NCBI GenBank assembly: GCA_016210565.1
Contig: JACQUA010000070.1
Coordinates: forward strand, 1-51,425
Source: Chloroflexota bacterium
GTDB taxonomy: Bacteria; Chloroflexota; Dehalococcoidia; JACQUA01
Direction: 5' to 3'
DNA length: 51,425 bases
The translations under genes were made by a program, and so were the position numbers. Under the pieces are notes generated by a model. It searched no databases. It was not told the origin of the DNA and saw only the letters and a program-made list of their open reading frames with translations. Below, piece after piece: positions 9,051-38,746 of the stretch. The number at the start of each line of letters is the position of its first letter. Position 1 is the stretch's first letter.

Positions 9051-9052
9051 AT

Positions 9053-11117: not shown

Positions 11118-11139
11118 CCACAAGACCACTGTGAAAACG

Positions 11140-11599: not shown

Positions 11600-11608
11600 T
11601 CTCTATTG

Positions 11609-11925: not shown

Positions 11926-11932
11926 TGAACAA

Positions 11933-12006: not shown

Positions 12007-12030
12007 GTTTCTCTGTTATCAAGTAAACAC

Positions 12031-12130: not shown

Positions 12131-12185
12131 AAGCATGTCTATATTCAGATTTCCAAGTGTGCATTAGGCGCAGCAACGAACAGAT

Positions 12186-12792
12186 ATGGACACGAAACTT
12201 GAAGACAGCGGTAAAGAGTACTTATGGAACGGCGCGCAATGGGTGGAAGCCAAATCGAGAACGGTCGTGTCCGAATCCGATGCAAGCAGATTGAGTAAGA
12301 AGCTACAACGCAAGATTGGTTCTTCCAATGTGCCGCGAACGGTTACGGGTTCTGTCTTCTTCTTCTTCTGGGATAAGTACAAGGAAGATATGGAGAACCT
12401 AGGAAGAACAAACCAGCTAAATCAAGACAACAAACTCGTTAAATCCCTGAAGAAACGAGAGCATGTTTGGGCTTTTGCCCGGAGAGAAAACGCGACATAC
12501 ATTCTTGTAATGGATTTGGTGGTTGCGTTCACGCGTGACAAATACACGCGGCGACTTTGGGTTTAGGTACGGCAAATACTGTGCTGTCGGCAGCGACGAA
12601 TGCCGGTACTTTGACGCGGATTCTTGTCCCGACGCTGAACCTTTAATTAGAGGTCTGAGCTTTTTCAAGAAGGATACAAAGGTGAAAACAACCGGGCAGA
12701 TGTTCCAGGGTCGAAATGCAGTACGCCCTCTGACTATGGCAGATGAGTCCAGAATTATGGAACTGTCGAAGAAATGCCCGGCTATCCGCTAA
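12186..12792 (+). pseudogene. Frameshifted unknown protein
   Basis: Two overlapping frames join into one protein. The first (ATG 12186) reads to RRENATYILVMDLVV, the second resumes RVTNTRGDFGFRYGKYCAVG and ends at 12792. The join lies near 12525-12535, where a single-base shift repairs the frame to about 202 residues. A run of phenylalanines (VFFFFW) lies in the middle. I do not recognise the family. The break could be a real mutation or a sequencing error. Confidence 0.5.
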
Positions 12793-12884
12793 GCTAACGG
12801 TATTTCAAGTGTCCTGGTGCTGTCTATCGTCAAGTACTGTCCATTTTCGGAACCTCGCCGCTGCGCCCGGCGCCGCTGAAGGAA

Positions 12885-14045: not shown

Positions 14046-14112
14046 TTCTTGACCTCCTTAGCCGGACAAAGCCGGAAATTCCAGGTTCCGACAATCAGCA
14101 TTGTTACGAAAG

Positions 14113-14239
14113 TGTCACCCTGAGCCGAAGCCCTGAGCGAAGCGAAGGGGCAGTCGAAGGGTCTTTCGCCGCGCGCCCCACCCAGAAAGATTCTTCGGCT
14201 ACGCCCGCTGCGCTCGCTTCGCTCAGAATGACAGGTGAC
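14113..14239. repeat. CACCCTGAGC-type hairpin repeat, copy 1
   Basis: Opens GTCACCCTGAGCCGAAGCCC and closes GCTCAGAATGACAGGTGAC, giving a long imperfect hairpin. Copies at 15780-15915 and 17783-17928 sit in the next two gaps; the tandem array at 21081-21323 is made of half units. A further hairpin ACCCCCGA/TCGGGGGT lies at about 14302-14322. Confidence 0.65.
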
Positions 14240-14323
14240 GCAGCCATTATCATTGTTCATAGTGCCTGGCGACCAAGCATGGAGGATTGATTCGTCACTC
14301 ACCCCCGATCCAGTCGGGGGTCG

Positions 14324-15754: not shown

Positions 15755-15779
15755 ATCTCTAATTCCTTGCTACGAAAAT

Positions 15780-15915
15780 GTCACCCTGAGCCGGAGCCCT
15801 GAGCGAAGCGAAGGGGCAGTCGAAGGGTCTTTCGTCTCGCATCCCACCCCAAAGGATTCTTCGACTATCCCGATTCTATCGTCACTGCGCTCGCTTCGCA
15901 AGAATGACAGGTGAC
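15780..15915. repeat. CACCCTGAGC-type hairpin repeat, copy 2
   Basis: Same ends as copy 1 (GTCACCCTGAGCCGGAGCCC ... AGAATGACAGGTGAC). The whole gap 15755-16063 holds only this element and short hairpins; no gene seen. Confidence 0.65.
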
Positions 15916-16063
15916 TCAGGCATGTTCATGCTTCATCGCGCTGGGCCGGCCAAGCATGGAGGACTGATAACCAGTTGATGCTGTAATGGTTCAGTCTTTG
16001 CTGCTCAACCATGAACGACCCGGCTCGTCGGGGTCGCTCGGGGGAGAATCCGGCAGGCCTGGG

Positions 16064-17167
16064 TCACATGGCGAGTCCTACTCCAAGCCCTGGAGCTCCG
16101 GGAACCCGCATGGCGCCGTTTTTGATCTCTACGCCGCGGAAAGGATCATTGACAAACCGGCTGAACTCGGCGAGCTGGCAGGCGTAGCCGATGTTGATGG
16201 TCGAGGCGATGAAATGCATGGCAGCGGCCGAAAGAATGCTGGGGCCCACACAGGCGACGAGACACTTCAGCTTGCCCAACCGGCAGATATCGGCCACTCT
16301 TTTTGCTTCCCGCAGGCCGCCGTGCGTCACCCCAATGGAGACACACCCGGCGAACCCGTCCTTTACCAGGCGAAAGACGTTTTCCGCCGTTTTCGCGCTC
16401 TCGTGGGCTTCAATCAAGCAGTTCACGTTCCGGCTCACCCTGACCAGACCGGCGAAGTCATCTTCCGGCACCGGCTGCTCCACCATCTCTATCCGGTACG
16501 GTTCCATCTGTTTGATGGATTCGATGGCCGCGTCTGCGGAGTAGCTCTGGTTCGGGTCGGTGGTCAGGTGGATATCGGCGCCCACCGCCTCCCTGATGGC
16601 CCTTACCCGGGCCAGGTCTTCGGCGGGATGGCCTTCCAGCTTGATTTTCAAGTACCGGTAGCCTTCCCGGGTCAGCCGAAGGGCGTTTTCCGCCATTTCG
16701 GCCGGCTCTTTTATGCCCAGCATCCTCAGTACGGGAATCTCGTCACGTACCAGGCCGCCCAGCAATTGGTACACAGGCAGGCCGGCGGCCCTGGCCATGA
16801 TGTCGTGGAGGGCCATGTCGATCGCCGACCGGGCCGATATCCCCGCATTGATGCGGTCCGCGGGGTCACCGGCCGGAATCTCGGACAAGGGCATCTGTTC
16901 CAGGTCAAGCAGTATCTTCGCAATGTCATACGGGTCTTTGCCCGCCAGATACCGGCCATAGCTCTGGAAGACAGCTTTGAGGATGGGAGGCTTAACGCCA
17001 TCGTAGGGGGGGTTGGCGCTGGCAAACCCCAGTCCGGTGATGCTGGCGCCGGTATTTATCTTCAGGACCGTCCCCTCTCCCACCGGTGAAGCCGAAAGAG
17101 CGGTCTTCCACTTGGGATCGTCCTTGACCAGCACCATGGGCGTGGTCTCGATGTCTTTGATCTTCAC
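16064..17167 (-). CDS. Enolase-superfamily (mandelate racemase/MLE-like) enzyme
   Basis: 367 residues with an N-terminal capping domain and a TIM barrel. YLKIKLEG carries the KxK catalytic lysines; TTDPNQSY and MVEQPVPEDD carry the first two metal ligands. The third ligand region reads IEAHESAKT, with His where most members have Asp (ADES). The strand before the GG turn reads VSIGVTHGGL, with no lysine where MLE-type enzymes have one. So chemistry probably differs from racemisation/cycloisomerisation. Its GTG overlaps the cupin stop (GTGA), so the two are co-translated. Substrate unknown. Confidence 0.8.
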   Translation of the reverse strand: MKIKDIETTPMVLVKDDPKWKTALSASPVGEGTVLKINTGASITGLGFASANPPYDGVKPPILKAVFQSYGRYLAGKDPYDIAKILLDLEQMPLSEIPAGDPADRINAGISARSAIDMALHDIMARAAGLPVYQLLGGLVRDEIPVLRMLGIKEPAEMAENALRLTREGYRYLKIKLEGHPAEDLARVRAIREAVGADIHLTTDPNQSYSADAAIESIKQMEPYRIEMVEQPVPEDDFAGLVRVSRNVNCLIEAHESAKTAENVFRLVKDGFAGCVSIGVTHGGLREAKRVADICRLGKLKCLVACVGPSILSAAAMHFIASTINIGYACQLAEFSRFVNDPFRGVEIKNGAMRVPGAPGLGVGLAM

Positions 17168-17718
17168 GGTGACTTCCTCTCCTGCGCCGGCGCCGCGGCG
17201 GGCAGCTTCCCCCCGGCCCAGTCGGGATGCTCTCCCTGCTGTGTTCTTATCATATCGACGGCATCCGTGATGGGCCTGAACCGGAAAGCTATCCAGACGG
17301 CAGGATTCTGGATATCTTCGTTGAAGTGCTGGTGTTCGCAGCCCCCCGGCTTTATCGGCAGGACGATGAGGTCATCCTCCTCCCAATCGAAGCGGGCGCC
17401 TTCCACCACGCTGTATCCTTTGCCCTCCAGGACGAATATGACCACGCCCCCCTGATGAGTATGGCGGCCGGAATGCTTCTTGATGTTTTGAATGAAGATG
17501 TTCCAGCCGGGAGCGCCCACGGTATCCCATTCCAACTGAGAGGTAAGATGACGGCTCAATGACTGCCGGTTCTGTTGCCAGGGTCTTTCTTTACCCTTGA
17601 TGATTACTTTGCCTTCGACCCGCTTGCGGACGGCGTCGTTCTGCAGCCTCATGCGGAGGTCGTAATCGGTCTCCCTGGGTTCGGGCTCTCTCTTCTTTTC
17701 AGTAATGCGTTCAACCAA
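17164..17718 (-). CDS. Cupin-domain protein
   Basis: 184 residues from a TTG at 17718 with GGGAG upstream; the frame opens further (TTG 17745). Cupin motif 1 is HSGRHTHQGGVVIFVLEGKG, motif 2 includes PGGCEHQHFN, giving the metal-binding histidines. Resembles the gentisate-dioxygenase-like single cupins. It may be an oxygenase, an isomerase or a sugar/acid-binding accessory protein for the enolase-superfamily enzyme whose gene overlaps it. Confidence 0.75.
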   Translation of the reverse strand: MVERITEKKREPEPRETDYDLRMRLQNDAVRKRVEGKVIIKGKERPWQQNRQSLSRHLTSQLEWDTVGAPGWNIFIQNIKKHSGRHTHQGGVVIFVLEGKGYSVVEGARFDWEEDDLIVLPIKPGGCEHQHFNEDIQNPAVWIAFRFRPITDAVDMIRTQQGEHPDWAGGKLPAAAPAQERKSP

Positions 17719-17782
17719 GATTAGACTCCCGTATTCGGCGAACAATCACCCATCCCGACGAGTCGGGACAATGAACGATGAA

Positions 17783-17928
17783 AATGTCATTCTGAGCGAA
17801 GACGAGCGCCAGCGAGTCGTAGTCGAAGAATCCTTCGCTTCGCTCAGGACAAGTTCTTTTAGAGGGGGGAACCAAAGACCCTTCGCAACCCCTCCGCTTC
17901 GCTGGGAGCTCCGGCTCAGGGTGACATT
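17783..17928. repeat. CACCCTGAGC-type hairpin repeat, copy 3
   Basis: AAATGTCATTCTGAGCGAAG on the left pairs with GGCTCAGGGTGACATTT on the right. It is followed (17938-17999) by another inverted repeat built from ATCCAGAATCCAGGAG and CTGGATACTGGATTC. No gene in 17719-18026. Confidence 0.6.
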
Positions 17929-18026
17929 TTCCGAGCAAGAATCCAGAATCCAGGAGTGAGGCGCTCGCTTCTGAATTCTGGATACTGGATACTGGATTCT
18001 CCTGGTCATTCGTCATTCGGATTTCG

Positions 18027-19166
18027 TCATTTGTTCACAAATATCTTCTTCGCAATTTCTACATATTCATCCTTCTTGAGATTGTATTCGTAGCTTATTG
18101 TATCATGGTATTTGGCACCCGGCTGCCGCAGAAGCCAGGGTTCGACGAAATCCGTCGGAACGTCTGTGCGCGCACTCTGGAGACCCTCGGCTTTCGACAC
18201 CACGGTCTGGCCCTCTCTGGTCAGTATCCAGTTCAGATAAACGATGGCCGCATTGGGATGGGCCGGCTTGTTCAAAAGGCTGACCGCCCCCCTGCTCTGC
18301 GACAGATAGCTGCCTTCCCTGGGGATAACCACATCCATATTCGACACACCGGCCCTGATCAGGTCGCTCATCTCCGGGGCATTCATAGCCAGGCCAACGC
18401 TGTATTTGCCTCTGGCGAGCCATTCCACTTCCTGCCGGAAATTTCGCAGCAAGACCGGCTCCTGTTTGGCCAGTTCCCGGAGGTAGTTGATATCCATAAT
18501 CCGGTGGCCGACCGCGGTCACCCATCCGTTGCCTGAGCCGCCTATGGTCGGGTCATCCATGATGATCTTCCCCTTCCATTTCGGGTTCAACAGGTCCCGG
18601 AAGGACTGTATTTCATCCTTCTTGACAAGGTCCGTGTTTATGACGATGGCGGGGAGGGCCTGGAGAGAATAGGCGAGGTGCGTCCGCTCGTCGTCCACCC
18701 ACCAGAGCTTCCCCTGGAACCAGTTGGCAGTGCCCTTCGCTTCGGGCAGCATCAAGGCGGGTTCCAATGGCTTCAGCACCCCGGCTGGTTTCAAACCGTT
18801 CATGGTACTCATCGTGGCGCCGGTGACCACGTCAGCCAGGTTGATGTTGGCCCGTTGCTCGCTGAGTATCTTCTGGACGGTCTCGTTGCCCCTGCCGGTG
18901 ACCCAGTCTATGCGGATGCCGAACTTGCTATGGAAAGCCTCGCTCACCGTCTGCCGCGTTTCGGGGGAGGTGGAGCCGTAGATGGTCACTCCCCCCTCGG
19001 CCTTTGCCGCGGTCAATATCCGGCCCCATTCGTCTCCGGGAGGCTGATTCGAGGATACCGGCTGTTGACCGGCTGACGCGGCGGGAGTTACGGGTAACGT
19101 GGCAGGGGTGCAGGAGACTCCAAGCGCCGTGATCACAAGCACCATGAAGATAAGCTGGTCTTTCAT
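18027..19166 (-). CDS. Extracellular solute-binding lipoprotein, paralogue 3
   Basis: 379 residues from ATG 19166 (GAGGG upstream); an upstream TTG-like start at 19205 would add 13 residues ahead of the signal peptide and is less likely. Lipobox ALGVSC (Cys19). Landmarks: NPKWKGKIIMDDPTIGGSG, and HPNAAIVYLNWILTREGQT. Lies between the cupin gene and the flavoprotein gene, both co-directional. No permease nearby. Confidence 0.85.
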   Translation of the reverse strand: MKDQLIFMVLVITALGVSCTPATLPVTPAASAGQQPVSSNQPPGDEWGRILTAAKAEGGVTIYGSTSPETRQTVSEAFHSKFGIRIDWVTGRGNETVQKILSEQRANINLADVVTGATMSTMNGLKPAGVLKPLEPALMLPEAKGTANWFQGKLWWVDDERTHLAYSLQALPAIVINTDLVKKDEIQSFRDLLNPKWKGKIIMDDPTIGGSGNGWVTAVGHRIMDINYLRELAKQEPVLLRNFRQEVEWLARGKYSVGLAMNAPEMSDLIRAGVSNMDVVIPREGSYLSQSRGAVSLLNKPAHPNAAIVYLNWILTREGQTVVSKAEGLQSARTDVPTDFVEPWLLRQPGAKYHDTISYEYNLKKDEYVEIAKKIFVNK

Positions 19167-27024: not shown

Positions 27025-27136
27025 CCAACGCACTCATGAAATGTGCCCGTACAAGGTTTGTGCTTTGACAGCGTCGCTTCCCTTTGCTATGCTGAGACAG
27101 TCTGGCGGAAGTGGGCCACTCAAAGGAGGTGAGAAA

Positions 27137-27400
27137 ATGCCGAAACAAATAGTGTTGGAGTTTCCAACTGAATTGCCAGAGAGAAGCGCAAGAGACAAAG
27201 GCGCCCTGAAGAAGGGCAAAGAGGCCATGGTCCTGGAGCTTTTGCGCAAAGGACAAGTATCCCAGGGGAAAGCAGCCGAACTACTAGAGATAGACCGGTG
27301 GGCACTTGGTGACCTCATGGCGAAACACGACGTACCTATGGCCAATTTTCCGCCGGAGGAACTCCGTCGCCAGCGAGAAGACGCTGAGAAAAGAAGATAG
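27137..27400 (+). CDS. UPF0175 antitoxin
   Basis: 87 residues from an ATG with a strong AAAGGAGGTGA site. Middle segment LRKGQVSQGKAAELLEIDRW is the UPF0175 helix-turn-helix-like core; FPPEELRRQ closes it. UPF0175 proteins pair with DUF3368 PIN-like toxins. The DUF3368 gene starts 6 nt downstream. Confidence 0.85.
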   Translation: MPKQIVLEFPTELPERSARDKGALKKGKEAMVLELLRKGQVSQGKAAELLEIDRWALGDLMAKHDVPMANFPPEELRRQREDAEKRR

Positions 27401-27406
27401 GGAGCA

Positions 27407-27901
27407 GTGTCAGAGTTGATTGTAGCTGACAGTAGCCCCCTTATCAGTTTTGCCAGAGCCCGAAAACTCAAAATCCTTGAGAGTGTCTGTAGCCGCATAG
27501 TCATTCCGCCAGCCGTCTATGACGAAATCGTGATCAAGGGCAGCGGCAAACCGGGAGCAGAAGAGATTGGAGCGGCGGCCTGGATTGGTGTTCAAAGACC
27601 GAAAGACAGAGCCGAAGTCGCCAAACTGAAGGAAACCTTCGGCGCCGGTGAATCCGAAGCTATCGTCCTGGCGGAGGAAACCGGAGCCATTCTACTCGTC
27701 GATGAAGGGGCGGCCATAAAGGAAGCCCGAAGACGAGGCCTCCGAATTGCCAGCAGCCATTTGATTTTGGAAGAAGCCAAGAGAAAGAAACTGGTTGTGA
27801 GCGTAAAGAAGGAGTTGGATGAGCTGATTGGCAGCAGCTTCCGAACAACCCCGGAGCTTATCAAGGAAACGCTGCAAAGAGTGGGGGAATGGAGAGATTA
27901 A
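27407..27901 (+). CDS. DUF3368 PIN-like toxin
   Basis: 164 residues from a GTG start. PIN-like acidic residues are in place: LIVADSSPLISFA at the N-terminus, GAGESEAIVLAEE in the middle and LLVDEGAAIKEARRRGL later. Predicted ribonuclease toxin neutralised by the preceding UPF0175 protein. Six-nucleotide spacing indicates one transcript. Confidence 0.85.
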   Translation: MSELIVADSSPLISFARARKLKILESVCSRIVIPPAVYDEIVIKGSGKPGAEEIGAAAWIGVQRPKDRAEVAKLKETFGAGESEAIVLAEETGAILLVDEGAAIKEARRRGLRIASSHLILEEAKRKKLVVSVKKELDELIGSSFRTTPELIKETLQRVGEWRD

Positions 27902-27982
27902 CGCGTGTAAGGGCCTTCGACGTCACATCGGTTGAGAAGAACGGTAAGTGTACCCGAGCGAAAAGCGGGAGAGGGTGCAAGG

Positions 27983-28333
27983 GTGAAAGAAGAACAAATA
28001 GCAGATTCACAGCTTTCGCCGGAGCTCCTGAGGGATTTGGAAATGATAGACAAAATCGAGCAGACTGATCGCTCGGTCACGGTACGGAAGCTGCTGTCCA
28101 GGGCAGCGAAGGACTGGAAGATGGAGTACTTCGCGAAGCTGTATGCAGAGGGCAGAGTGAGCGTAGCCCGCGCCGCCAGAGAATGCGGCGTGTCCATTTG
28201 GGAGATGATGGACTACTTGAGGCAAAAGAAGATACCATCCCAATACGATTTCGAAGAATGGGAGAAGGACCTGGCAACCGTGGAAAAAACCGGGCCGGCC
28301 CGCGGCAGTAGATCGAAGAGCCGGAGGAGCTGA
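27983..28333 (+). CDS. Orphan UPF0175-family protein
   Basis: 116 residues from GTG 27983; the open frame extends upstream to 27932 without a clear site. Core LYAEGRVSVARAARECGVSI is the UPF0175 motif, followed by MMDYLRQKKIPSQYD. An extra N-terminal part (VTVRKLLSRAAKDWK) distinguishes it from the copy at 27137. No intact toxin follows, so it is a lone antitoxin or has lost its partner. Confidence 0.7.
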   Translation: MKEEQIADSQLSPELLRDLEMIDKIEQTDRSVTVRKLLSRAAKDWKMEYFAKLYAEGRVSVARAARECGVSIWEMMDYLRQKKIPSQYDFEEWEKDLATVEKTGPARGSRSKSRRS

Positions 28334-29192: not shown

Positions 29193-29357
29193 ATGAACAT
29201 GAGGATGATTCATATTCGCCTGCCCGAGCACATTCATAAGGAACTCCGCATACACGCTGCTGAGAAAGATATTACTATTCAAGATTGGGTGAGCGAGTTG
29301 ATCGAAAAGGAGCTCACTCGGAAAGAAACCCAATCAACTCATCAACAGGTGTTCTGA
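29193..29357 (+). CDS. Ribbon-helix-helix (Arc/CopG-like) DNA-binding protein
   Basis: 54 residues. MIHIRLPEHIHKELRIHAAE is the strand-helix and DITIQDWVSELIEKEL the second helix of the fold. Start ATG 29193; in-frame ATGs at 29199 and 29205 are alternatives. First gene of the island operon, 66 nt before the next; probably an autorepressor. It may instead be an antitoxin whose toxin is absent. Confidence 0.65.
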   Translation: MNMRMIHIRLPEHIHKELRIHAAEKDITIQDWVSELIEKELTRKETQSTHQQVF

Positions 29358-29423
29358 CGGTTGAATACTAACCATACGTTAATGGAAAAAGAAGTGAAAT
29401 AACAACAGGAGAGGTACCGCAGG

Positions 29424-30656
29424 TTGAGAGCCGTTTCGCCTTTCGGGTCTCGGACGACATCAGTGCGCCGGTTAGACTACGCACGGAGATCATGGCAACG
29501 TCTAGGACATCTCAAAATGTTATGCTCCGTAGCGAGCCCATCTTATGCAACCAGTTTGGAGGGAATTACTACTCGCTTTCAGACCCTAATCACGGACTTA
29601 AAGAAAATACCACCGGAACGTAGGGCTGAAGTTCTTCAATACGTCACTTCCCACAGGTCAGGCCAATATAAATCGGTTGAGAAATTAGACTCAATCGAGC
29701 TACAGGACCTCTATTTATCCGACGCCAGATTACCGTCTCATTCGGGGGCTCTAACAGGCCGGCTAAGGCCAGTTAGCTATCTAAATACCGAGTATGTTGA
29801 GATACCTACCTGGGCAAACAATCTTCTTTTACTCAGACGAGGTAACTATACACTTACTGACAGGGGTAAGGTGCTGCTTGCTTTACAACCGAAAGGGAAA
29901 ATTAACTATTCAACCGGTAGAATGGAAGTGAACCCATTCCTTCTATCACCTTCCGAGAAGTATTTTTTTCTGTATTGCATTCTTGAATCAGACGGGGACT
30001 TGATTAGGCGGTTGTATGATCGTTTGTTGGCTCTCATCACGTTTAACAATAATGACGTGGGCCATGAAATGAGCGCATCTTTACTGGCAACGCAGCAAGA
30101 GTCGACAGGAACTGGCAAATCCGAACTGAGCCGGATAATGAGAGCAGCCGAAGCGGGAATTAAAAGCGGTCAAATCCTGACGACTCGATTGGAACCTTTG
30201 GTGGATTGCGGTCTACTTCGCAGGACGGATGCAGTTCAACACGTGTATGAGTTTAATGATGGGACAAGGGCGTTTATTCAAAACCTCAGTGGTGCCTCCT
30301 CAGTCGGAGAATTCCTCGTAAGCTCTCTTGCTTCAAATATGGCTTTTTTTCTAAGAACGACCGCGACAGAACCACAAAGAAACATAAGATTCTTCACATC
30401 AAGAAGTTACCTTCAGTTGCGATCAGGTTTAGGCTATTGTTCAATTCGAGAATTAGCGCTGCTGACCGTAAGCAATGCAATCTACGAAGGGGTATCTCGT
30501 TTTGAGATCGATGATGTTGAGCGTGAATTGATATCGCTTTCCAAAGAATATGGAAGCAAAGTGCGTTTCACGAAAAATAGGCAAGGAGATATTGCATTAG
30601 TACGAATCGATAGAGACCTTGCAGAGAACCTGTATGGAATTACTGAGTCAAAGTAA
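29424..30656 (+). CDS. Unknown island protein A
   Basis: 410 residues from a TTG start with AGGAGAGG upstream. No domain I can name. A winged-helix-like piece reads NYTLTDRGKVLLAL around residue 141-154, and DAVQHVYEFNDGTRAFI lies later; so it may bind DNA. The first ~30 residues (arginine-rich) may not be translated, with ATG 29517-29520 region as an alternative. Its end overlaps the PLD gene start, so the two are coupled. Confidence 0.6.
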   Translation: MRAVSPFGSRTTSVRRLDYARRSWQRLGHLKMLCSVASPSYATSLEGITTRFQTLITDLKKIPPERRAEVLQYVTSHRSGQYKSVEKLDSIELQDLYLSDARLPSHSGALTGRLRPVSYLNTEYVEIPTWANNLLLLRRGNYTLTDRGKVLLALQPKGKINYSTGRMEVNPFLLSPSEKYFFLYCILESDGDLIRRLYDRLLALITFNNNDVGHEMSASLLATQQESTGTGKSELSRIMRAAEAGIKSGQILTTRLEPLVDCGLLRRTDAVQHVYEFNDGTRAFIQNLSGASSVGEFLVSSLASNMAFFLRTTATEPQRNIRFFTSRSYLQLRSGLGYCSIRELALLTVSNAIYEGVSRFEIDDVERELISLSKEYGSKVRFTKNRQGDIALVRIDRDLAENLYGITESK

Positions 30657-31182
30657 GATTGGCACTGGGCTGGTGAGGGAAGCAAAGGCTGCTGTGGTCC
30701 GAAATGGAGTGCAACGGGTCTTCGCGGCAAGACTCCGAATCGCCCGTAATGCTGCGAAAATGATTGTCATTGCATCACCTTGGATCACTGCTCAGACCGA
30801 AAAAAGTAGCCCTTTGAATCAGATAATCCATCTTATTAATGAAAGAAATATTCCAACTTATGTTTTTACTAGACAGCCGCAAACGGCATCAGAGCACTTA
30901 GGGCAACAGCTCTTGATGGAGTGTCCAACCGTAGAATTAGTGTATAATCCACATTTGCATGCCAAGCTTTATGTATGTATCGCGCCGTATCCATATGGTT
31001 TCGCGGTTTTAGGTTCCGCGAACATGACTGTCAATTCGGACGCATTATACGAGATAGGGCTGCTTATTTTGGCTGCAGGGGGCGGTGAAATAATTATCAA
31101 AGAGCTTGCCAGTTTCGGCCTGGACTACATGAGAACCAGGGCTGAATCGCAGGTAGTAAAAAAAATGTCAAGGGCGAGGTGA
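30634..31182 (+). CDS. PLD-family nuclease, single HKD motif
   Basis: 182 residues from ATG 30634, inside the end of the previous gene. The HKD motif reads HLHAKLYV (His109, Lys111), then VLGSANMTVNSDALYEIG with Gly127, Asn130 and Glu140. One HKD motif per chain means it should dimerise, like BfiI or Nuc. In this setting it is the likely DNA-cutting subunit. Other PLD proteins act on lipids, but small cytoplasmic copies beside ATPases are usually nucleases. Four nucleotides separate it from the next gene. Confidence 0.8.
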   Translation: MELLSQSKIGTGLVREAKAAVVRNGVQRVFAARLRIARNAAKMIVIASPWITAQTEKSSPLNQIIHLINERNIPTYVFTRQPQTASEHLGQQLLMECPTVELVYNPHLHAKLYVCIAPYPYGFAVLGSANMTVNSDALYEIGLLILAAGGGEIIIKELASFGLDYMRTRAESQVVKKMSRAR

Positions 31183-31186
31183 AAAT

Positions 31187-32392
31187 ATGGCTTACGAAAC
31201 TACTTCTCTAAAGGATTACTATTTCCTGCGTAAATGGGAATCTTTCTCCATCGACCCTTGGAGAGACAGCGAGGTCTATTTTGGAGAAGCCGAATTGTTG
31301 AAGCGGATATCCGATCGCATAGAAAGTGATTTCGCAAAGCGGCGAGCCGTCCCAAAGTTTTTCCTTTTCGGCGCTTACGGATGCGGGAAGACCCATTCGT
31401 TAGCTCACATAAAATATACACTTGAAAAGAACCAACTATATCCAGCGATGCCCATCTATGTAGCCATGCCACCGTTGACATCCAAGGACCATTGGTTACG
31501 GATTCACACAAAATTGCTAGACTCGATAGGGCCGGATAGAATCCGGTCTGCTATGGAAATAATGGCTGACAAGATCCAGGGAACCGACAAGGTTAAAGGC
31601 CTTCTCGACAACGGAATATTGCCGTTTGGTGACGACACTATGAAAATCTCCCAATCAAACGCACTCAGAAATTTCTTGTTTGGAGGACGCCAATCCCAGT
31701 TATCGTGGGAATGGATGCGGGGGAGAAAGAATTCGGCGGAACAGGCTGCCGTACTCGGAGTGCAGAAAGACATCACTGAAGCGACTGACTTCGTTAACTG
31801 TCTGCTAAACCTCGGCTCACTCATACGCAACGCCACATCAAAGAAGCTTGTCTTTTTAATCGATGAGGCTGAAGCGGTAAAGTCCGTTACCAATGCTGAT
31901 TCCCTACATGAACTTCAGCAAATGCTCCGGGATTTGCTAGATGATAACAACAACTGCGTTGGTCTAATATTCGCCATACAGGTTGAAGGCGGTCAAGAAG
32001 AAATCGGCGAAGTATTCACTAGAGGAGATATCCAGCGGAGAGTCGATTTTGACCAAGGCTATATTGATTTGACTCCAATGGTCAGTCAGATTACGAGCGC
32101 AGAACAATTTATGTGTCATGTTCTGGCTTATCTAGTTGAACAGGACAAAGCACAGTCCGCTATCACCGATGAGGGACTGATCGTTTCGAAAGAGAGGTTT
32201 CCATTTTCGGACGAAGCCATCAAGGCCATCGCTACCCACATAGCTGACAAGCCAGAGTGGGCGACACCTGCGTTTATCTTGGCGACTATGAGTACCGCGG
32301 CTGTTGAAGCATGGAGAAAACGTAGTCAGTCGGACAAACACGTGATCGTAGATACCGAGATAATCGAATCAACTATCTATCCTGGGGGTTAA
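31187..32392 (+). CDS. AAA/ORC-type ATPase 1
   Basis: 401 residues. Walker A FGAYGCGKT (residues 61-69), Walker B LVFLIDEA (221-228). A WEWMRGR...AAVLGV element between them recalls the WLRGE segment of BREX BrxD-like (DUF2791) ATPases, so it may be a distant relative; not certain. C-terminal part is helical (TPAFILATMSTAAVEAW), as in winged-helix ends of ORC/Cdc6-like proteins. Likely a DNA-loading or target-sensing ATPase of the system. Confidence 0.75.
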   Translation: MAYETTSLKDYYFLRKWESFSIDPWRDSEVYFGEAELLKRISDRIESDFAKRRAVPKFFLFGAYGCGKTHSLAHIKYTLEKNQLYPAMPIYVAMPPLTSKDHWLRIHTKLLDSIGPDRIRSAMEIMADKIQGTDKVKGLLDNGILPFGDDTMKISQSNALRNFLFGGRQSQLSWEWMRGRKNSAEQAAVLGVQKDITEATDFVNCLLNLGSLIRNATSKKLVFLIDEAEAVKSVTNADSLHELQQMLRDLLDDNNNCVGLIFAIQVEGGQEEIGEVFTRGDIQRRVDFDQGYIDLTPMVSQITSAEQFMCHVLAYLVEQDKAQSAITDEGLIVSKERFPFSDEAIKAIATHIADKPEWATPAFILATMSTAAVEAWRKRSQSDKHVIVDTEIIESTIYPGG

Positions 32393-32395
32393 GGG

Positions 32396-33742
32396 ATGCA
32401 AAAATTCCAAGTCATGCCGGTAATAGGGCACAGAAACAAAGTGGTTGTTTTGGGAGCGACTTCTTCCGACCAGCGTATGATGCTGGGTAGACTTGCCGAA
32501 GTCGGCCCTTATAAAAACATCGATATGGACATAGGGAAAGAGCATGTGATTGCGATCGTAGGGAAGAGGGGATCAGGCAAGACACACAGTCTTGGAGTTG
32601 TTCTCGAAGGACTTATCTCTACATCGGAGCTCGTGAGTAAACATGCCTCCGACAAGGCTGTGTTAGTGCTCGACACACTGAATCTGTTTCAATGGATTGG
32701 GGTCCCCTTGGACTTGGCCCAGGGTAAAATAGCCAAAGAACAGCTGGACCGAGCGCGTCATTGGGGCCTTGCTGCGACACCTCTACCAGTCAAGCTTTGG
32801 CATTTAGCCGGCTCCCTACCGATGACAACAAAGGATTCGTCGCCCTTCTTGATACAGGTGAGCGACATGTCAGCTCAAGATTGGGGGTTCCTCTTTGACG
32901 TTGACGTTATGATGGATCCAATGGGACAGCTAGTAATGTCTGCTTGTGACAAAGTAAGGCACGCCGGGTGGTCGTCGAATTCGGGCCACAGAAATCCGAT
33001 GCCCAACCACTCGATTCGACATTTGGTAAATTGTATCGGAGAAGATAAGGAACTCGGCAATGATTTTTCTCCAGAGACGCGGCGCGCAGTCCGCCAACGC
33101 CTGATATCTTATGAACATGTTGGATTGTTTTCTACGAAAGGCACTCCTATTAAGGATCTGCTTCAGCCGAATCAAGCATCGGTCTTGCTACTTGGTCGGT
33201 GCCCGGAGGACCTCCGCACGGTAGTAGCGTTCCTTCTCATGAGGAAATTACGAGAGCTCCGGTCAATTGCCTCTGAACGTAAGAAAGAATTGCTAATTAC
33301 CGGGAGCGCACAGGCAGTTGGAGATGCTTATGTTCCTCCAACGTGGGTCTTGATAGACGAGGCGCAGAATATTATCCCTTCCAAAACTGTCTCCTTGGCA
33401 AATCAGGAGCTAACAAGGTTTGTAAGGGAAGGCCGAAATTTCGGGTTATCAATGGTTATTAGCACCCAACAACCCCAGGCAATAGATCCAAAAGTGATGT
33501 CGCAGGTGGATATTATCGTTGTCCACACCCTGACTGTCCAGACAGACATCTCCTACATTATGAATAATCTCAAAAGCGCACCGCCAGAAAATATAGTTCT
33601 GGGTCGTCAGCCTCTAAAACTGCAGGAAGCCATAAGGGAACTCGAAGTTGGACAATGTCTTATCTCTGCCACAGAGTCCCCAAGAGGATTATTCGCTGAG
33701 ATACGGCCTCGCATCACGGCACATGGCGGCTTTGAGGCTTAA
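32396..33742 (+). CDS. HerA-like DNA-translocating ATPase
   Basis: 448 residues. Walker A VGKRGSGKT (55-63), Walker B WVLIDEAQ (317-324), sensor-like MVISTQQPQAIDP, and the N-terminal beta-barrel-like segment GRLAEVGPY typical of HerA/FtsK relatives. HerA proteins form hexameric rings that move DNA and work with nucleases. Here the neighbour nuclease is the PLD protein. Three nucleotides from the previous gene. Confidence 0.85.
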   Translation: MQKFQVMPVIGHRNKVVVLGATSSDQRMMLGRLAEVGPYKNIDMDIGKEHVIAIVGKRGSGKTHSLGVVLEGLISTSELVSKHASDKAVLVLDTLNLFQWIGVPLDLAQGKIAKEQLDRARHWGLAATPLPVKLWHLAGSLPMTTKDSSPFLIQVSDMSAQDWGFLFDVDVMMDPMGQLVMSACDKVRHAGWSSNSGHRNPMPNHSIRHLVNCIGEDKELGNDFSPETRRAVRQRLISYEHVGLFSTKGTPIKDLLQPNQASVLLLGRCPEDLRTVVAFLLMRKLRELRSIASERKKELLITGSAQAVGDAYVPPTWVLIDEAQNIIPSKTVSLANQELTRFVREGRNFGLSMVISTQQPQAIDPKVMSQVDIIVVHTLTVQTDISYIMNNLKSAPPENIVLGRQPLKLQEAIRELEVGQCLISATESPRGLFAEIRPRITAHGGFEA

Positions 33743-34619
33743 AGTGTTCTTTCGGAGAAATAGGTGGAATAGAATAGAAACCCGACTAACAGGGCTTGAG
33801 GTCGCTGTTGGTAGGTTAACGTCTCTGGTTGCAGATTCCCCAATAGCTAATGTTTATCCAGAGCCAGTGGCAACTCCCCTAGCCTTGGAGAAAGGGGCAA
33901 ACCTACACACAGGCCGTTATTTTAGTCTACTTGATGCAGGGGAGGCGTTCATCAAATACAGTTGGGCAACTGCCATGAGTCTGAAGATGTCTGATGGCGA
34001 CACTGACCTATTAAAAGAACTCAGGCAGCCTCTATCTATAGGGGCTTTGGTCAAACTGTTACGTGACGTCCTACAATCCAAATTTGTAAAAAAAAACTCT
34101 ATAGGTAAGTCGCTACAAGTATCCTTTTTCCAGGAAGATGGCAGGCTAACCCAGGCTGGACGGTTTTTTCTCGACGAATACACCAATATTAGGAATACGA
34201 CTCGTGGTCATTCATCATCTCTACCAGATGGAGCTTACGAGGCCCCCTATTTGCGCCATGCTTCAGAGCTTCACGATGCTTTGGGAAAATGTTCTCATTT
34301 ACAGTTCCCACTTGTGCAGATTCAATCAGCGAATCCGGTGGGAGAACAGATCAACTACGACGTGAGAATGCTTGTTGGACCTCCGCCTTTCACAAAGATT
34401 GATAGAATTGAAACACAAAGCCACCTTAGACTCGGAGGGCTTTATGTGTGGGATCGGAACGATATCTTCGTCGACCTAATGAATTTTCTCATATGTTGTG
34501 CTTGTCCCGTATGCCATCTTGACCATACTTTTTTCCTGGAACAGTCGACTGGTAAAGCGGATAAATACCACTCTTACTTCGGAAGTCACCGATTTTCAAT
34601 CGAGAGAAAAAAAGCGTGA
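33723..34619 (+). CDS. Unknown island protein B with possible Zn knuckle
   Basis: 298 residues from ATG 33723, overlapping the HerA end by 20 nt. N-terminal third is basic then helical (LLDAGEAFIKYSWATAMSLK), a pattern seen in HEPN-like sensor domains (tentative). C-terminal CCACPVCHLDHTF looks like a metal site. No enzyme motif found. Its end overlaps the next ATPase by four bases (GTGA). Confidence 0.6.
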   Translation: MAALRLKVFFRRNRWNRIETRLTGLEVAVGRLTSLVADSPIANVYPEPVATPLALEKGANLHTGRYFSLLDAGEAFIKYSWATAMSLKMSDGDTDLLKELRQPLSIGALVKLLRDVLQSKFVKKNSIGKSLQVSFFQEDGRLTQAGRFFLDEYTNIRNTTRGHSSSLPDGAYEAPYLRHASELHDALGKCSHLQFPLVQIQSANPVGEQINYDVRMLVGPPPFTKIDRIETQSHLRLGGLYVWDRNDIFVDLMNFLICCACPVCHLDHTFFLEQSTGKADKYHSYFGSHRFSIERKKA

Positions 34620-35746
34620 AGGTACCGACGAACGATTTTGCAGTAATGTTGGGCCTCAGAGAGTGGCCTTTTGGTGTCGTACCTGATCCAGATAAAACTC
34701 TGATCTGGGCAGATAGACGCGAACTGCTCAATCAATTAAACAGATTGATGCGCCGAATCAAGGGAAACCCGGCATCTACTCTACATCTGCTATGGGCTGA
34801 TTTTGGAGCCGGAAAAACGCACACACTTTTATATTTGCGACAAAATCTATTATCCGCTAAAAGCGCCATTCTTCCAGTCTACGCTGTGCTCCCGAAAGAA
34901 ACCAGGTCTTTTGTTGATGTGTACAGAGCAATAGCAAGCAGTCTAACGATTGAGAAGTTGATTGAGATATATCGGGTAAGTTCCAAGACAGCGGAATTGC
35001 AGAACGCAGGTCCCTTGATTGGTGAAAAATGGAATGACGTCTTAACCGTCTTAAGAGCTTTGAGCATAGGCTCAGATTCCGTGGTTGAATCAGCTAAGAA
35101 ATGGATGCTAGCTGACCAGTCGCTAACCAGGCAGGAACTATTCTCTACATCGCTTCCCGACAAGATAAGAACGGTCGACGACGCGATTGCGGTTGTATCA
35201 AGCATATTCCGGTTGATGTCTATCGATAGTTCACGCGTAGTTCTTATGATAGATGAATTCCAGAGAACAGGAAGATTGAGAACCGGAATACGGAACGATA
35301 TTCAAGCCGGTTTACGGACCTTTTTTAATAATTGTCCAACAGGTCTCAGTATTGTATTGTCCTTCAAATTTGGAGCCGCGAAAGAAGTCGAAACATATCT
35401 TAGCGAGGAATTGAGGGATTTAGCCGATCCGCAAGTAATCATGATACCGGTTCTCGACCAAGGCGGTGCAAAAGACTTTTTGACCGACCTCGTCGAACAG
35501 GTCAAGGTACCCGGGACCGATTGTAGGATTCAACAAGATGCAATTGCAAGCCTTGTCGAATCCGTTTCAACTGTGGGGACTCTAAAGCCCCGGTTGATAA
35601 CTAAGACTGCAAGTCTGCTTTTCTCCGAAGGAGCAATGGATATAGAAGATGGTTTAGTAGATTCAATAGACGCAGTTTATGTTTGTAACAAATTTAAGCA
35701 GTCGCGGTCGACCATAGAGAACATTGATGCTGAACAGGAGGACTAG
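34616..35746 (+). CDS. AAA-type ATPase 2
   Basis: 376 residues from GTG. Walker A ADFGAGKT (61-68), Walker B VVLMIDEF (208-215). N-terminal FAVMLGLREWPFGVVPDPD resembles ExeA-like P-loop proteins. Different from ATPase 1 in sequence and spacing. C-terminal LKPRLITKTASLLF helix region may be a winged helix. Two distinct AAA proteins plus HerA in one operon is unusual. Confidence 0.75.
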   Translation: MKVPTNDFAVMLGLREWPFGVVPDPDKTLIWADRRELLNQLNRLMRRIKGNPASTLHLLWADFGAGKTHTLLYLRQNLLSAKSAILPVYAVLPKETRSFVDVYRAIASSLTIEKLIEIYRVSSKTAELQNAGPLIGEKWNDVLTVLRALSIGSDSVVESAKKWMLADQSLTRQELFSTSLPDKIRTVDDAIAVVSSIFRLMSIDSSRVVLMIDEFQRTGRLRTGIRNDIQAGLRTFFNNCPTGLSIVLSFKFGAAKEVETYLSEELRDLADPQVIMIPVLDQGGAKDFLTDLVEQVKVPGTDCRIQQDAIASLVESVSTVGTLKPRLITKTASLLFSEGAMDIEDGLVDSIDAVYVCNKFKQSRSTIENIDAEQED

Positions 35747-35754
35747 AGTCGGCA

Positions 35755-36201
35755 ATGGGTCATTATGAATTCGAAAAGAACAAGTCCAATATGGTCCACA
35801 TTGCTCCTCATGTCTACGAAGGGTATGACGTGATGGATGTAAGGATCTACGCGAAGAATAAGTCTGGAGAGTGGGTACCAACTCAAAAGGGGATATCGAT
35901 CAACATCGACCGTGTCCCGGACTTAATCCGTGGACTCGAGTGGGCTTTGCAGCAACCGTGCACTGAACTCGACTCCCAGCCTGTTGACCCTCTGTCACGG
36001 CAAGCTGAAGTGGAGTTGGCCAATGCGACTTATTCCCTTCTGAAAAAACACGGGGTGGAAGTACATTGGGACATGGCTGACCAAATTGTGCTAAAGGCGC
36101 CCAAAATGAGTAAGTATAACAAATGGCAGATCCATTACGTCCTAACGGTGAGGAAGGACCTCTTTGAATACAAGGGCGATGGGTGTTTCAAAGCAATTTG
36201 A
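35755..36201 (+). CDS. PC4-like ssDNA-binding protein
   Basis: 148 residues. VMDVRIYAKN, VPTQKGISINIDRVPDLIRGL and EWAL form the PC4/YdbC-like core at about residues 26-66. PC4-fold proteins bind single-stranded DNA. The C-terminal half (TYSLLKKHGVEVHWDM...) is unrecognised. Could hold strands opened by the ATPases or protect them. Confidence 0.75.
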   Translation: MGHYEFEKNKSNMVHIAPHVYEGYDVMDVRIYAKNKSGEWVPTQKGISINIDRVPDLIRGLEWALQQPCTELDSQPVDPLSRQAEVELANATYSLLKKHGVEVHWDMADQIVLKAPKMSKYNKWQIHYVLTVRKDLFEYKGDGCFKAI

Positions 36202-36221
36202 AGTAATCATCGGAGAATAAC

Positions 36222-37475
36222 GTGCTTGGTCAAAAGATATTCAGAAACAACGGCAACACAAAAATGAGCATATTTTCCTTTTTCTCGGGAGTAGGCTTGT
36301 TAGACTTAGGGTTTGAAGATCAAGGGTACGAAATAGCCTTGGTTAATGAGTTGCATCCCCCTTTTCTCGAGGGTTACAAGTTCGCGAGAAAACGTTTGAA
36401 TTATGCGAATCCAGAATTCGGATATTTTGGCAATAGCGTTGCTGATTTCTTAGACGGAGAAAAAAAGCACGTTCTGGAGCACGCTATTGTTGAAGTCCGG
36501 GCGAAAGGTGCATTTGTTGGATTGATTGGCGGACCTCCTTGTCCCGATTTCTCTATAGGTGGCAAGAACAAAGGAAAGGACGGAGAGAACGGAATCCTAT
36601 CGCAGACCTACTGCGACCTAATATGTCAATTCAAGCCAGATTTCCTCCTCTTGGAGAATGTAAAGGGCTTATGGAAGACCCGACGGCACCGAATGTTTTA
36701 TGATGAATTGAGGCAAGCGTTTCAACTCGCAGGTTATCTCACGACAGACAGACTAATAAATTCCATTGAGTACTGCGTGCCTCAGAGCAGGGAAAGGGGT
36801 TTGCTGTTCGGGATTAGTGCTACTTTTGCACGTGACCACGACTTAGACATTGATGCATCTTCTAACAGCATTCCAGACGACAAGTTCGACTGGTCGCGAC
36901 ACGCGAAATACCCGGGCAAGGTGGCATTTCAATACGCCTGGCCCCGGGTTTCGAAGTTTGAAGAAGACTCGACTCTACCTCCCCCCACCAATTTGCCTCT
37001 TGAACTAACGGTTGAGTACTGGTTTCAGAAGAATGACGTTGTAAATCACCCCAACAGTACGCAACAGTTCAAAGCCAGGGCTGGGCTAACGCGATTCTTA
37101 ACGATTGATGAGGGCGATGATAGTGGTAAATCCTTCAAAAGATTACACAGATGGCGGTATTCCCCGGCCGCCGCCTATGGCCATAACGAAGTGCATTTGC
37201 ATCCGTATAAACCGAGACGTTTGTCTGTATCCGAGGCTATGGCTATCCAATCCCTGCCGAAGGGCTTCGAGCTGCCAGCAAGCATGAGCTTGACCGATAT
37301 GTTTCAGGCAATAGGTAACGGTGTTCCTTACCTAGTTTCGAGGTCCGTTGCGCAAACCATACGGGAGTTTTTGTCGAACAGCTCGTTCGCTCATCCCACT
37401 CAACAAAAAGAGAGGGTATCTAACTACGAGTGCCGCGGCAACAGAGATCTTCCGGTAACGGTTGATAAGTTTTGA
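36222..37475 (+). CDS. DNA cytosine-C5 methyltransferase
   Basis: 417 residues from a GTG with GGAG upstream (ATG 36264 is an alternative). Motif I FSFFSGVGLLDLGF; motif IV GGPPCPDFS with catalytic Cys107; motif VI ENVKG; motif VIII QSRERGLLFGIS; target-recognition region and motif IX/X (AIGNGVPYLVS) close it. Transfers a methyl group from S-adenosylmethionine to a cytosine carbon 5. Target site unknown. Part of the island operon, 20 nt after the PC4-like gene. Confidence 0.9.
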   Translation: MLGQKIFRNNGNTKMSIFSFFSGVGLLDLGFEDQGYEIALVNELHPPFLEGYKFARKRLNYANPEFGYFGNSVADFLDGEKKHVLEHAIVEVRAKGAFVGLIGGPPCPDFSIGGKNKGKDGENGILSQTYCDLICQFKPDFLLLENVKGLWKTRRHRMFYDELRQAFQLAGYLTTDRLINSIEYCVPQSRERGLLFGISATFARDHDLDIDASSNSIPDDKFDWSRHAKYPGKVAFQYAWPRVSKFEEDSTLPPPTNLPLELTVEYWFQKNDVVNHPNSTQQFKARAGLTRFLTIDEGDDSGKSFKRLHRWRYSPAAAYGHNEVHLHPYKPRRLSVSEAMAIQSLPKGFELPASMSLTDMFQAIGNGVPYLVSRSVAQTIREFLSNSSFAHPTQQKERVSNYECRGNRDLPVTVDKF

Positions 37476-37510
37476 CATTCTGAGATCACCAATCGGGTTG
37501 TGAGGCCATA

Positions 37511-38173
37511 TTGCAAATAGCTCCTATCAGAACCGCGCTATTATCGTGGTACGAAAGAAATGCCCGCTCTTTTGTTTGGCGAAAGAATACCGAACCCTAT
37601 GTGGTACTAATGGCCGAGATATTACTAAAGAAGACTACAGCGCCGGCCGTTGACCGATTCTTTCCGCTCTTCTTAGAGCGGTATCCCGACGTTCACACGC
37701 TACACGAAACTCCCCTCTGCGATTTGCAGAAAACACTCTGTCCCTTGGGTCTCTCTCTACAGCGTGCTCAGCAACTAAAAGGCCTAGCTAAGGCTCTAGT
37801 AGAGTCTTTCGGAGGAAAGATTCCATCTAAAAGGGAAGTCCTGCTAGAGCTACCAGGAATTGGTGATTATGTTGCTGGGGCGATTCTCTCTTTTGCCTGC
37901 GGAATGCCAGAAGCGATTGTGGACACCAACATTGCACGGGTCATTGTCAGGCTCTTCCATATTAGGCCATCGCACTACGAAGCAAGACGTAGTCCGGAGG
38001 TCTGGGACAAAGCTAGGAAGTTGGTGGGGCGAAATGGCAGACGAAGCAGAAGAGTTAACTGGGCAATGTTGGACCTGGCGGCAGCTGTCTGTAAGCCTAA
38101 GAACCCGCTACATTCGGAATGCCCTCTGGAGAAGTGGTGCATGTTTGCTAGGCAGGAACATCGGGGCAGTTGA
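37511..38173 (+). CDS. MutY/Mig-type DNA glycosylase, likely G:T-mismatch thymine glycosylase
   Basis: 220 residues from a TTG with TGAGG upstream. HhH-GPD fold: VVLMAEILLKKT (Glu at 36 position), helix-hairpin-helix LPGIGDYVAG, catalytic Asp138 (VDTN). Tyr120 replaces the Lys of endonuclease III and Ser of MutY; Mig, the thymine glycosylase encoded beside a C5 methyltransferase, has Tyr there. The iron-sulfur loop reads C194-x6-H201-x2-C204-x5-C210, with His in place of the second Cys. Its place next to the methyltransferase implies repair of T:G arising by deamination of 5-methylcytosine. Confidence 0.85.
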   Translation: MQIAPIRTALLSWYERNARSFVWRKNTEPYVVLMAEILLKKTTAPAVDRFFPLFLERYPDVHTLHETPLCDLQKTLCPLGLSLQRAQQLKGLAKALVESFGGKIPSKREVLLELPGIGDYVAGAILSFACGMPEAIVDTNIARVIVRLFHIRPSHYEARRSPEVWDKARKLVGRNGRRSRRVNWAMLDLAAAVCKPKNPLHSECPLEKWCMFARQEHRGS

Positions 38174-38209: not shown

Positions 38210-38245
38210 AAAATAAAAAGGAGCGACGGTGATTACCGTCACTCC
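38210..38245 (-). terminator. Rho-independent terminator, minus strand
   Basis: GGAGCGACGGT-GATT-ACCGTCACTCC (38220-38245) forms an 11-bp stem with one mismatch. On the minus strand it is followed by TTTTTATTTT. It ends transcription from the TniB-like remnant side and also sits just past the glycosylase gene. Confidence 0.75.
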
Positions 38246-38346
38246 TCGCTTATTGGAATCGCAAGAGCTAGGTTGTAGGCGCTCAGGCTCTTTGACCGTA
38301 TCCAGCCCGAGTTCGGTGTCCGCCTGGGCGGCTTGATTTAGCTGGC

Positions 38347-38385: not shown

Positions 38386-38700
38386 TTATCCGTCGAACTC
38401 GCCTTCGATTACCACGCGGACCAGGTGATCATCGATCAACTTTTGGGCTTGTCCCGCGGCGGCCATGAGACAGGCGGTAGCCACCTTGTTGACTTTCCGG
38501 GGGATACCCTCGCAGTATTCATGGATCACCCCCATGGCGGCCTGGGCAAAAATTTCTCCGGGGGCTTTGGCGGCCGCCAGGTGTTTGGCGACGTAGGCCG
38601 CCGCTTCCTCATTAGTCAGCGCGGGCAGGTGGAAGCGCATGTCCACCCGCTGCCAGATGACGGCCATTGCGCGCGTTGACAGGGCGAAGGGGAGCGCCAT
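38386..38700 (-). pseudogene. C-terminal fragment of a TniB/ExeA-like transposition ATPase
   Basis: About 104 residues: AVIWQRVDMRFHLPALTNEE, AAYVAKHLAAAKAP, and IHEYCEGIPRKVNKVATACL match the C-terminal lid region of ExeA/TniB-type AAA proteins. The Walker A/B half is missing; the frame begins within the domain at 38700, right next to the UbiD gene. It is a remnant of a mobile element at the right border of the AT-rich island. Confidence 0.7.
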
Positions 38701-38746
38701 ATAATGCCGTTCGGATAGACGGGTATCTACCGAAACGGAAGACAGT

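Follow-up and report, generated by a model that had tools for sequence, protein, structure and literature searches.

Within the window, as we call the whole 51,425-nucleotide stretch analysed here (contig JACQUA010000070.1 of a Chloroflexota bacterium, assembly GCA_016210565.1), ten genes form an operon that we read, with a probability of about 0.7, as a restriction-modification-type defence system, in which a conserved restriction module would destroy DNA that lacks the host mark and exchangeable modules would supply that mark. As predicted from the protein sequences, the restriction module would comprise a HerA-like motor ATPase, one or two BrxC/D-like AAA ATPases, a PLD nuclease with a single HKD motif and a protein that we named unkA. 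Systems resembling restriction-modification are themselves known, and the new element would be a restriction core with exchangeable marks. We put at even odds the wider proposal that one core of HerA, BrxC/D-like ATPase, PLD and unkA serves at least five self-marks, the modules being swapped and the absence of the mark being sensed through an exchangeable interface. The five marks meant are 5-methylcytosine (5mC), N6-adenine methylation, N4/N6 methylation, backbone phosphorothioate and a predicted acyl mark made by a GNAT enzyme. Restriction modules are usually regarded as tied to one kind of mark. The present core stays tight from Chloroflexota to Pseudomonadota and an archaeon and, if the proposal is true, would let one ask how a nuclease reads "no mark" regardless of its chemistry.

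The recurrence of the core was established with HerA as bait. Its alignment was used to scan 84,980 species genomes, the best 80 of 305 relatives were kept, and with L022 (L numbers designate loci) and the window this gave 82 loci for examination; the 30 of them that hold the PLD, ATPase, HerA and unkA genes together are thus no census. HerA and the ATPase are present in all 30, PLD in 28 (not in L028 and L055) and unkA also in 28, window included, 23 times by profile and five times by clustering with those (in L026 as two open reading frames, ORFs); for the remaining two loci, L035 has a fragment at the contig end and L075 has none. According to the record titles, the hosts belong to Chloroflexota, Omnitrophota, Verrucomicrobiota, Myxococcota, Thermodesulfobacteriota, Acidobacteriota, Pseudomonadota and Planctomycetota and, beyond these eight bacterial phyla, to an Aenigmatarchaeota archaeon, with one host titled only "uncultured bacterium". 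The core genes are co-directional in 29 of the 30 loci, the exception being L048 with ATPase and PLD on the other strand, and they mostly overlap or are separated by a few bases, except in L075 (a gap of 933 bases) and L030 (763 bases). Their orders are PLD-ATPase-HerA-unkA, ATPase2-PLD-ATPase-HerA-unkA, PLD-ATPase-HerA-unkA-ATPase2 and GNAT-ABC-HerA-unkA-PLD-ATPase; the window differs in that unkA precedes PLD. The 52 other loci were kept outside the core counts; most of them are archaeal, have longer HerA-type proteins and lack a PLD or unkA match. A preliminary description of this DNA had taken the ten genes for one conserved set, and these counts reject them as an obligate set: only the four core genes recur, together with a second ATPase in 10 of the 30 loci, window included. 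The co-inheritance check that it had proposed thus came out in favour of the core genes, found together across genomes, and left the other window genes as accessories; likewise, of two unknown proteins that it had taken for obligate-looking members, unkA proved to be core and the other, unkB, was not found elsewhere.

The same association was seen inside the phylum. A HerA search of 400 of its genomes gave matches at 1e-10 in 49, the genome of the window included; four others scored at least 142 bits, and all four have an ATPase and an unkA relative adjoining HerA along with a PLD match of varying strength. The other 44, with best matches below 54 bits, were rejected as orthologues. The unkA profile (A5) matched five of the 400 genomes, the same five that carry the HerA orthologues, and none without HerA. 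Since A5 contained sequences of four of the five (window, L027, L041 and L088), the new information is the match in the fifth genome, G220, together with the finding that unkA never occurred apart from HerA.

What surrounds the core varies. Among the neighbours scanned, which is the scope of all counts of adjoining genes given here, known or predicted modification genes lie near the core in 23 of the 30 loci, so that by gene linkage a nuclease module is associated with a self-marking module. They are of five types: C5 methyltransferases in 3 loci, Eco57I-type N6 methyltransferases in 5, N4/N6-methyltransferase-like proteins in 2, SspBCD in 2 and GNAT-ABC proteins in 11. Besides the window, C5 methyltransferases occur in two of the 29 other core loci, L038 (two ORFs on the opposite strand) and L039, and all three C5 loci carry a gene for T:G repair: that of the window is Mig-like, and those of L038 and L039 encode Vsr. 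The Eco57I-type loci are L022 (two ORFs), L026 (running off the contig), L029, L032 and L034, the last one assigned because it is about 48% identical to those of L029 and L032; in L029, L032 and L034 the methyltransferase gene stands directly 3' of unkA. The N4/N6-like type is represented by L041 and by L040, which is sub-threshold in Pfam and clusters with L041; at L040 (4844-6790) an Nmad2 domain (7e-27), adjoining the core, is joined to the N4/N6 methyltransferase-like stretch.

SspB, SspC and SspD stand beside the core in L036 and L037, with SspA also present in L036 (region 7067-19147). Models of SspE, SspF, SspG and SspH gave no match to the neighbours tested in these two loci (the library's holdings of these models were not checked), and the core therefore seems to stand in for the usual restriction partner. 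The HerA-PLD core is thereby a candidate for an additional restriction partner in single-strand phosphorothioation, and our reading predicts that SspABCD has such a partner besides SspE and SspFGH. The GNAT-ABC assignments rest on Pfam for three loci (two above the GNAT cut-off) and on clustering with those for eight, and in 10 of the 11 the gene overlaps HerA or unkA. The cluster held 12 ORFs from 12 loci; the twelfth, from L022, was left out as an ordinary ABC transporter by reading. The idea that GNAT-ABC proteins modify DNA reportedly originates with Iyer et al. 2013. It has the standing of a prediction in the accessible part of the literature (PMC7824862), and our reading makes the protein a candidate for a new DNA base mark.

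The relation between core and modules was followed on a HerA tree of 40 rows, namely the 30 system loci and 10 outside rows, of which L069 fell within the system clade; its contig ends just after HerA. Module labels need 11 changes on this tree against 25.3 in shuffles, and module types are therefore clustered on it. At the same time, the starred branches leave C5 no choice but two separate positions, and once L069 is set aside GNAT-ABC falls into two HerA clades. Either history, independent gain of a module or its loss with intervening replacement, would mean that marking modules have been exchanged. The same module type also adjoins the core in different phyla.

The core proteins keep the motifs expected of active enzymes. 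All ten operon proteins were profiled with Pfam, PADLOC 2.0.0 and NCBIfam. The HKD motif of the window PLD protein, the proposed effector of the system, is intact, and among the 29 PLD ORFs found in the core loci (counting that of the window) 27 keep HxK...GSxN; those lacking it measure 81 and 155 amino acids (aa). The Walker A and B motifs of HerA are kept in all 30 core loci and a C-terminal RPR[IV][ST]xHGG in 28; the window protein is shorter than the PADLOC HerA models (379-686 positions), one model excepted. The AF2 model of unkA was of good quality (pLDDT 85.3, pTM 0.89), and a Foldseek comparison of this model with solved structures returned nothing significant (best E 0.097). Many of its weak local matches are to the winged-helix parts of ORC1, MarR, SarS and FOX proteins; the order of helices and strands in the model would possibly allow up to three winged helices, and we propose unkA as a DNA reader or adaptor.

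Several points weigh against the reading of the operon as a mark-sensing restriction system. Modification genes were not recognised in seven of the 30 core loci. Three of these are truncated by contig ends or fragmentary (L030 and L033 show only stretches matching a methyltransferase N-terminus, and in L035 the contig ends); the other four are L027, L028, L031 and L055. Among the 23 positive loci, almost half (11) have the predicted-only GNAT-ABC; others are imperfect, with the C5 gene of L038 and the N6 gene of L022 split, that of L026 off the contig and that of L040 sub-threshold; and the modification genes lie on the opposite strand to the core in L036 (SspA excepted), L037, L038 and L041. 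The figure of 23 in 30 also stands without a control rate of modification genes near unrelated operons. As to the window itself, its locus has no close relative (best HerA identity 42-43%), none was found for its unkB, its PLD assignment is sub-threshold in Pfam and it comes from a metagenome-assembled genome with 6.4% contamination. Finally, it is inferred from the genes that the operon serves defence, that the core senses the mark, that events follow the proposed order and that unmarked rather than marked DNA is attacked.

A rival reading is the opposite mechanism, in which the core attacks marked DNA in the manner of type IV enzymes, or is switched on by the host mark as SspE is by phosphorothioate. 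According to the accessible part of PMC8092258, SspE, a partner of SspABCD, needs the host mark to act; moreover, three of the core loci without a recognised methyltransferase, L027, L028 and L031, carry Mrr_N-domain proteins. L055 has a protein related to one of L027. We hold this mechanism to be unlikely, as the host's own DNA would be marked by the C5, N6 and N4/N6 methyltransferases whose genes accompany the core, and as the damage done by SspFGH falls on DNA lacking the mark and that done by unrestrained DndFGH on hosts lacking it (same source, same extent). A different reading keeps the motor and drops the marks: HerA would intercept DNA in transfer or segregation, as a capture device against plasmids or conjugation, and the modification genes would be passengers of a defence island. 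Capture of invading DNA by HerA/FtsK has been proposed for the HerA/FtsK-Orc/CDC6 systems (PMC10853773, accessible part), the contig of L025/L041 bears by reading integrase-like and conjugation-like ORFs, and the seven loci lacking a recognised modification gene fit as well. Against this, GNAT-ABC mostly overlaps HerA or unkA, the Eco57I-type methyltransferase gene stands right after unkA in three loci, and the same module type is found again beside the core across phyla; we regard capture as quite unlikely.

Returning to restriction of unmarked DNA, the preferred reading can be laid out as a sequence of events. The C5 methyltransferase would mark the host DNA, and the Mig-like glycosylase would repair the T:G mismatches that arise from deamination of 5mC. 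The unkA protein and the ATPases would load the complex on DNA and check it for the mark; HerA would then pump unmarked DNA, which the PLD protein would nick or cut, while PC4 may hold the single-stranded DNA exposed on the way. A repressor of the operon may be supplied by the ribbon-helix-helix (RHH) protein, and an accessory effector by unkB. The weakest steps are the mark sensor and the attack on unmarked DNA, which is drawn by analogy with SspFGH and DndFGH.

The layout of the operon (Table 1) bears out what had been described at the outset, namely ten plus-strand and nearly gapless genes in AT-rich DNA set in a GC-rich chromosome. In gene order, the intergenic gaps are +66, -38, +4, +3, -20, -4, +8, +20 and +35 bases, that of -20 being the overlap of HerA with unkB; gene starts are partly uncertain, and the methyltransferase possibly starts at the ATG at 36264. 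The ten-gene block (29193-38173) has a G+C content of 46.8%, compared with 58.3% in the remainder of the contig, where the lowest value among 115 windows of the same size is 57.4%. The host genome assembly measures 6.5 Mb and is 94% complete, and the window is one whole contig of it. Promoter-like sites in the region are at chance level (12 found, 12.0 expected), and a search for direct repeats flanking the island found none. The low G+C and the sparse distribution, in 5 of 400 genomes of the phylum, would suit a domesticated mobile element or DNA-maintenance operon with no part in defence. We consider this very improbable, given that profile scans of the ten proteins showed no integrase, relaxase, replication or transposition family and that SspBCD and diverse methyltransferases beside a nuclease with an intact active site form the pattern of a restriction module.

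Table 1. Genes of the operon and the adjoining hairpin (positions in the window; values are E-values of profile matches)
Feature	Position	Strand	Length	Role	Matches and motifs
RHH protein	29193..29357	+	54 aa	accessory	Pfam HicB 4.2e-5, CopG_antitoxin 6e-5 (weak)
unkA	29424..30656	+	410 aa	core	no Pfam or NCBIfam match; PADLOC best 0.045
PLD/HKD-type nuclease	30619..31182	+	187 aa	core	RE_NgoFVII 0.004, PLDc_2 0.03, both below Pfam cut-off
BrxC/D-like AAA ATPase 1	31187..32392	+	401 aa	core	Pfam BrxC_BrxD 1.2e-7; Walker A intact
HerA-like motor ATPase	32396..33742	+	448 aa	core	DUF87 3.4e-5; PADLOC mad8 7e-17 and HerA models
unkB	33723..34619	+	298 aa		no family in Pfam, PADLOC or NCBIfam; RNTTRGH motif, CPVC pair
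AAA ATPase 2, related to ATPase 1	34616..35746	+	376 aa		Pfam AAA_22 1.7e-9
PC4-domain protein	35755..36201	+	148 aa	accessory	Pfam PC4 4.2e-8
C5-cytosine DNA methyltransferase	36222..37475	+	417 aa		Pfam DNA_methylase 1.9e-41; PADLOC MTase_II 1e-150
Mig-like HhH-GPD glycosylase	37511..38173	+	220 aa		HhH-GPD 8e-11; PADLOC "type II nicking endonuclease" 1.9e-41
Hairpin	38218..38247		13 pairs	directly after operon	resembles a minus-strand terminator by consensus

Among solved structures, the glycosylase comes closest to 1kea, titled "Possible G-T mismatches repair enzyme" (2.8e-40); MutY (3.7e-31) and Nth (7e-17) follow. This ranking upholds the earlier suggestion of a repair enzyme matching the C5 methyltransferase. 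A tyrosine at the position of the Nth lysine and MutY serine is a trait of Mig-type glycosylases, and the alignment puts the GIGDY of the window protein on the GVGKY of 1kea. Nearest to Mig.MthI and with its tyrosine in place, the protein has by sequence the features of a Mig-type T:G glycosylase, an activity that is predicted. The best NCBIfam model, mutY, counts against this label with 160.8 bits, below its cut-off of 286.5; housekeeping MutY was rejected as the identity of this protein (P0010) on account of its nearest solved match. We propose that it repairs T:G mismatches at 5mC sites. One further relative, 30% identical, is encoded elsewhere in the genome, and no second relative of the C5 methyltransferase was found there at 1e-5.

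The RHH protein, unkB and the Mig-like gene, which had been counted as members of the set, have no relative in the 81 other loci scanned, although ORFs below 60 aa were not called there and a small RHH gene could escape. The RHH protein is probably the operon regulator and the PC4 protein probably a single-stranded DNA binder; PC4-domain proteins are present in two other core loci, L034 and L032. Next to the core in L022, L027, L028, L029, L031, L032, L034 and L055, Eco57I-type methyltransferases, Mrr_N proteins and PC4 proteins share a C-terminal domain of about 137 aa, which was not found in the window and may serve for docking.

For unkB, the search also covered 59 other relatives and plasmids and gave no relative, and the predicted structure was uninformative (pLDDT 32). 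Its RNTTRGH resembles the HEPN RNase motif R-x4-6-H; a protein adjoining the core in L029 has a weak DUF4145 match (0.003). Neither unkB (P0006) nor HerA (P0005) has a relative among viral contigs, and a phage search with the HerA of L022 found none. Apart from unkB, the plasmid searches gave distant matches only, in Salinigranum with ATPase 1 and in Haloplanus with three HerA queries. The Haloplanus plasmid (L106, 3225-17137) encodes a HerA-like protein with a BREX-type ATP-binding protein of about 1360 aa, a GNAT, a PD-(D/E)XK nuclease and a helicase and, judged by its annotated functions, is another HerA-based set in an archaeon.

Around the operon, toxin-antitoxin-like genes lie upstream (27041-28333: UPF0175, the PIN-like DUF3368 and a second UPF0175), and the downstream neighbours are a UbiD gene and, by reading, valS. 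Between them and the island, a minus-strand ORF of 104 aa without Pfam match (38386-38700) is a possible mobile-element remnant at the island edge; by reading, we take it to resemble the C-terminal part of an ExeA/TniB-type ATPase. A sigma-70-type promoter match of 12/12 is found at 38676-38705, directly downstream of the island and before the UbiD-like ORFs.

We finally compared the operon with known systems. The PADLOC matches, for the operon proteins as for two relatives, fail to sum to one listed system, which agrees with the initial view of a modification-linked set outside existing definitions, and the same view that the operon is not DISARM, BREX or Dnd held for the hallmarks tested in the window proteins. 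The likeness to DISARM is limited to weak DrmC matches of the PLD proteins (0.006 in the window, 6.5e-5 in L036) and to a DrmMII match of the C5 methyltransferase (4.5e-28) far below that to MTase_II; DrmA and DrmB were not found in the ten proteins by PADLOC (for the methyltransferase, among the best 25 of 58 matches), nor DUF1998 by Pfam, and the window has a HerA motor instead. As to BREX, the BrxC_BrxD match of ATPase 1 covers part of it and its NCBIfam BrxD score is 25 bits against a cut-off of 350, and no window protein matched PglZ, PglX or BrxX (for the methyltransferase, again among the best 25 of 58 matches). From DndFGH, only DndH models matched, and only over HerA residues ~314-400 (best 4e-6). 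The resemblance to SspFGH and DndFGH is one of organization, in that a DNA-marking module adjoins a restriction module of several subunits, among them an ATPase and a motor of the FtsK/HerA type. In the accessible part of PMC8092258, Ssp systems have a separate restriction module, SspE or SspFGH, and the three genes of SspFGH encode a protein with a Walker A motif, a second for which no homology is noted and a third whose C-terminus is FtsK-like, with no PLD described there. Ssp models gave no match to the window or to the core proteins of L036 and L092 (the library's holdings of SspF, SspG and SspH were not checked). PbeABCD, as far as the accessible part of PMC6459918 describes it, has in PbeA a PLD fused to a Res/DEAD helicase and in PbeC an AAA/SMC-like domain, whereas the window PLD is a stand-alone protein without helicase families.

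Of the listed systems, MADS is the nearest, and a distant kinship is possible. Its mad8 is the best PADLOC model for the HerA protein not only of the window but also of L036 (2e-16), L092 (3e-17) and L037 (6e-18). The methyltransferase of L029 is matched by mad2 (1.5e-27), and better by a type IIG model (1.8e-54). MADS consists of eight mad proteins, and the window is clear only for mad8, ATPase 1 giving 0.034. Matches of mad3 to the GNAT-ABC proteins of L092 (1e-14) and L043 (4e-11) were rejected as evidence, since this model (PDLC04135) matches in 301 of 301 genomes and 14 of 14 controls; these matches are mostly in long frames, which we guess may be UvrA. The Mig.MthI-type glycosylases and Vsr likewise stand as repair genes next to C5 methyltransferases; unlike those pairs, the pair described here is embedded in a longer operon that also encodes a putative restriction core.

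In the open-access literature, as distinct from subscription papers and bioRxiv, no paper appeared, as far as its accessible text goes, to describe this gene set. Within the same limits, the nearest in print are the HerA/FtsK-Orc/CDC6 (PMC10853773) and BRC (PMC12839542) systems, which share a motor, an AAA+ ATPase, a fast-evolving DNA-binding protein and a nuclease. The active restriction endonuclease (REase) of the former, which also have an inactive REase inserted in their Orc/CDC6 ATPase, has no counterpart by Pfam, the ten window proteins containing no REase-fold family (RE_NgoFVII is a PLD domain), and the BRC families PglZ, DUF6079 and DUF4007 are likewise absent from them by Pfam, the DUF4007 of L036 and L037 being SspB. 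In the accessible parts of these two papers the effectors are an REase or inactive REase, or PglZ, whereas the core presented here has a stand-alone PLD and is accompanied by five types of modification module.

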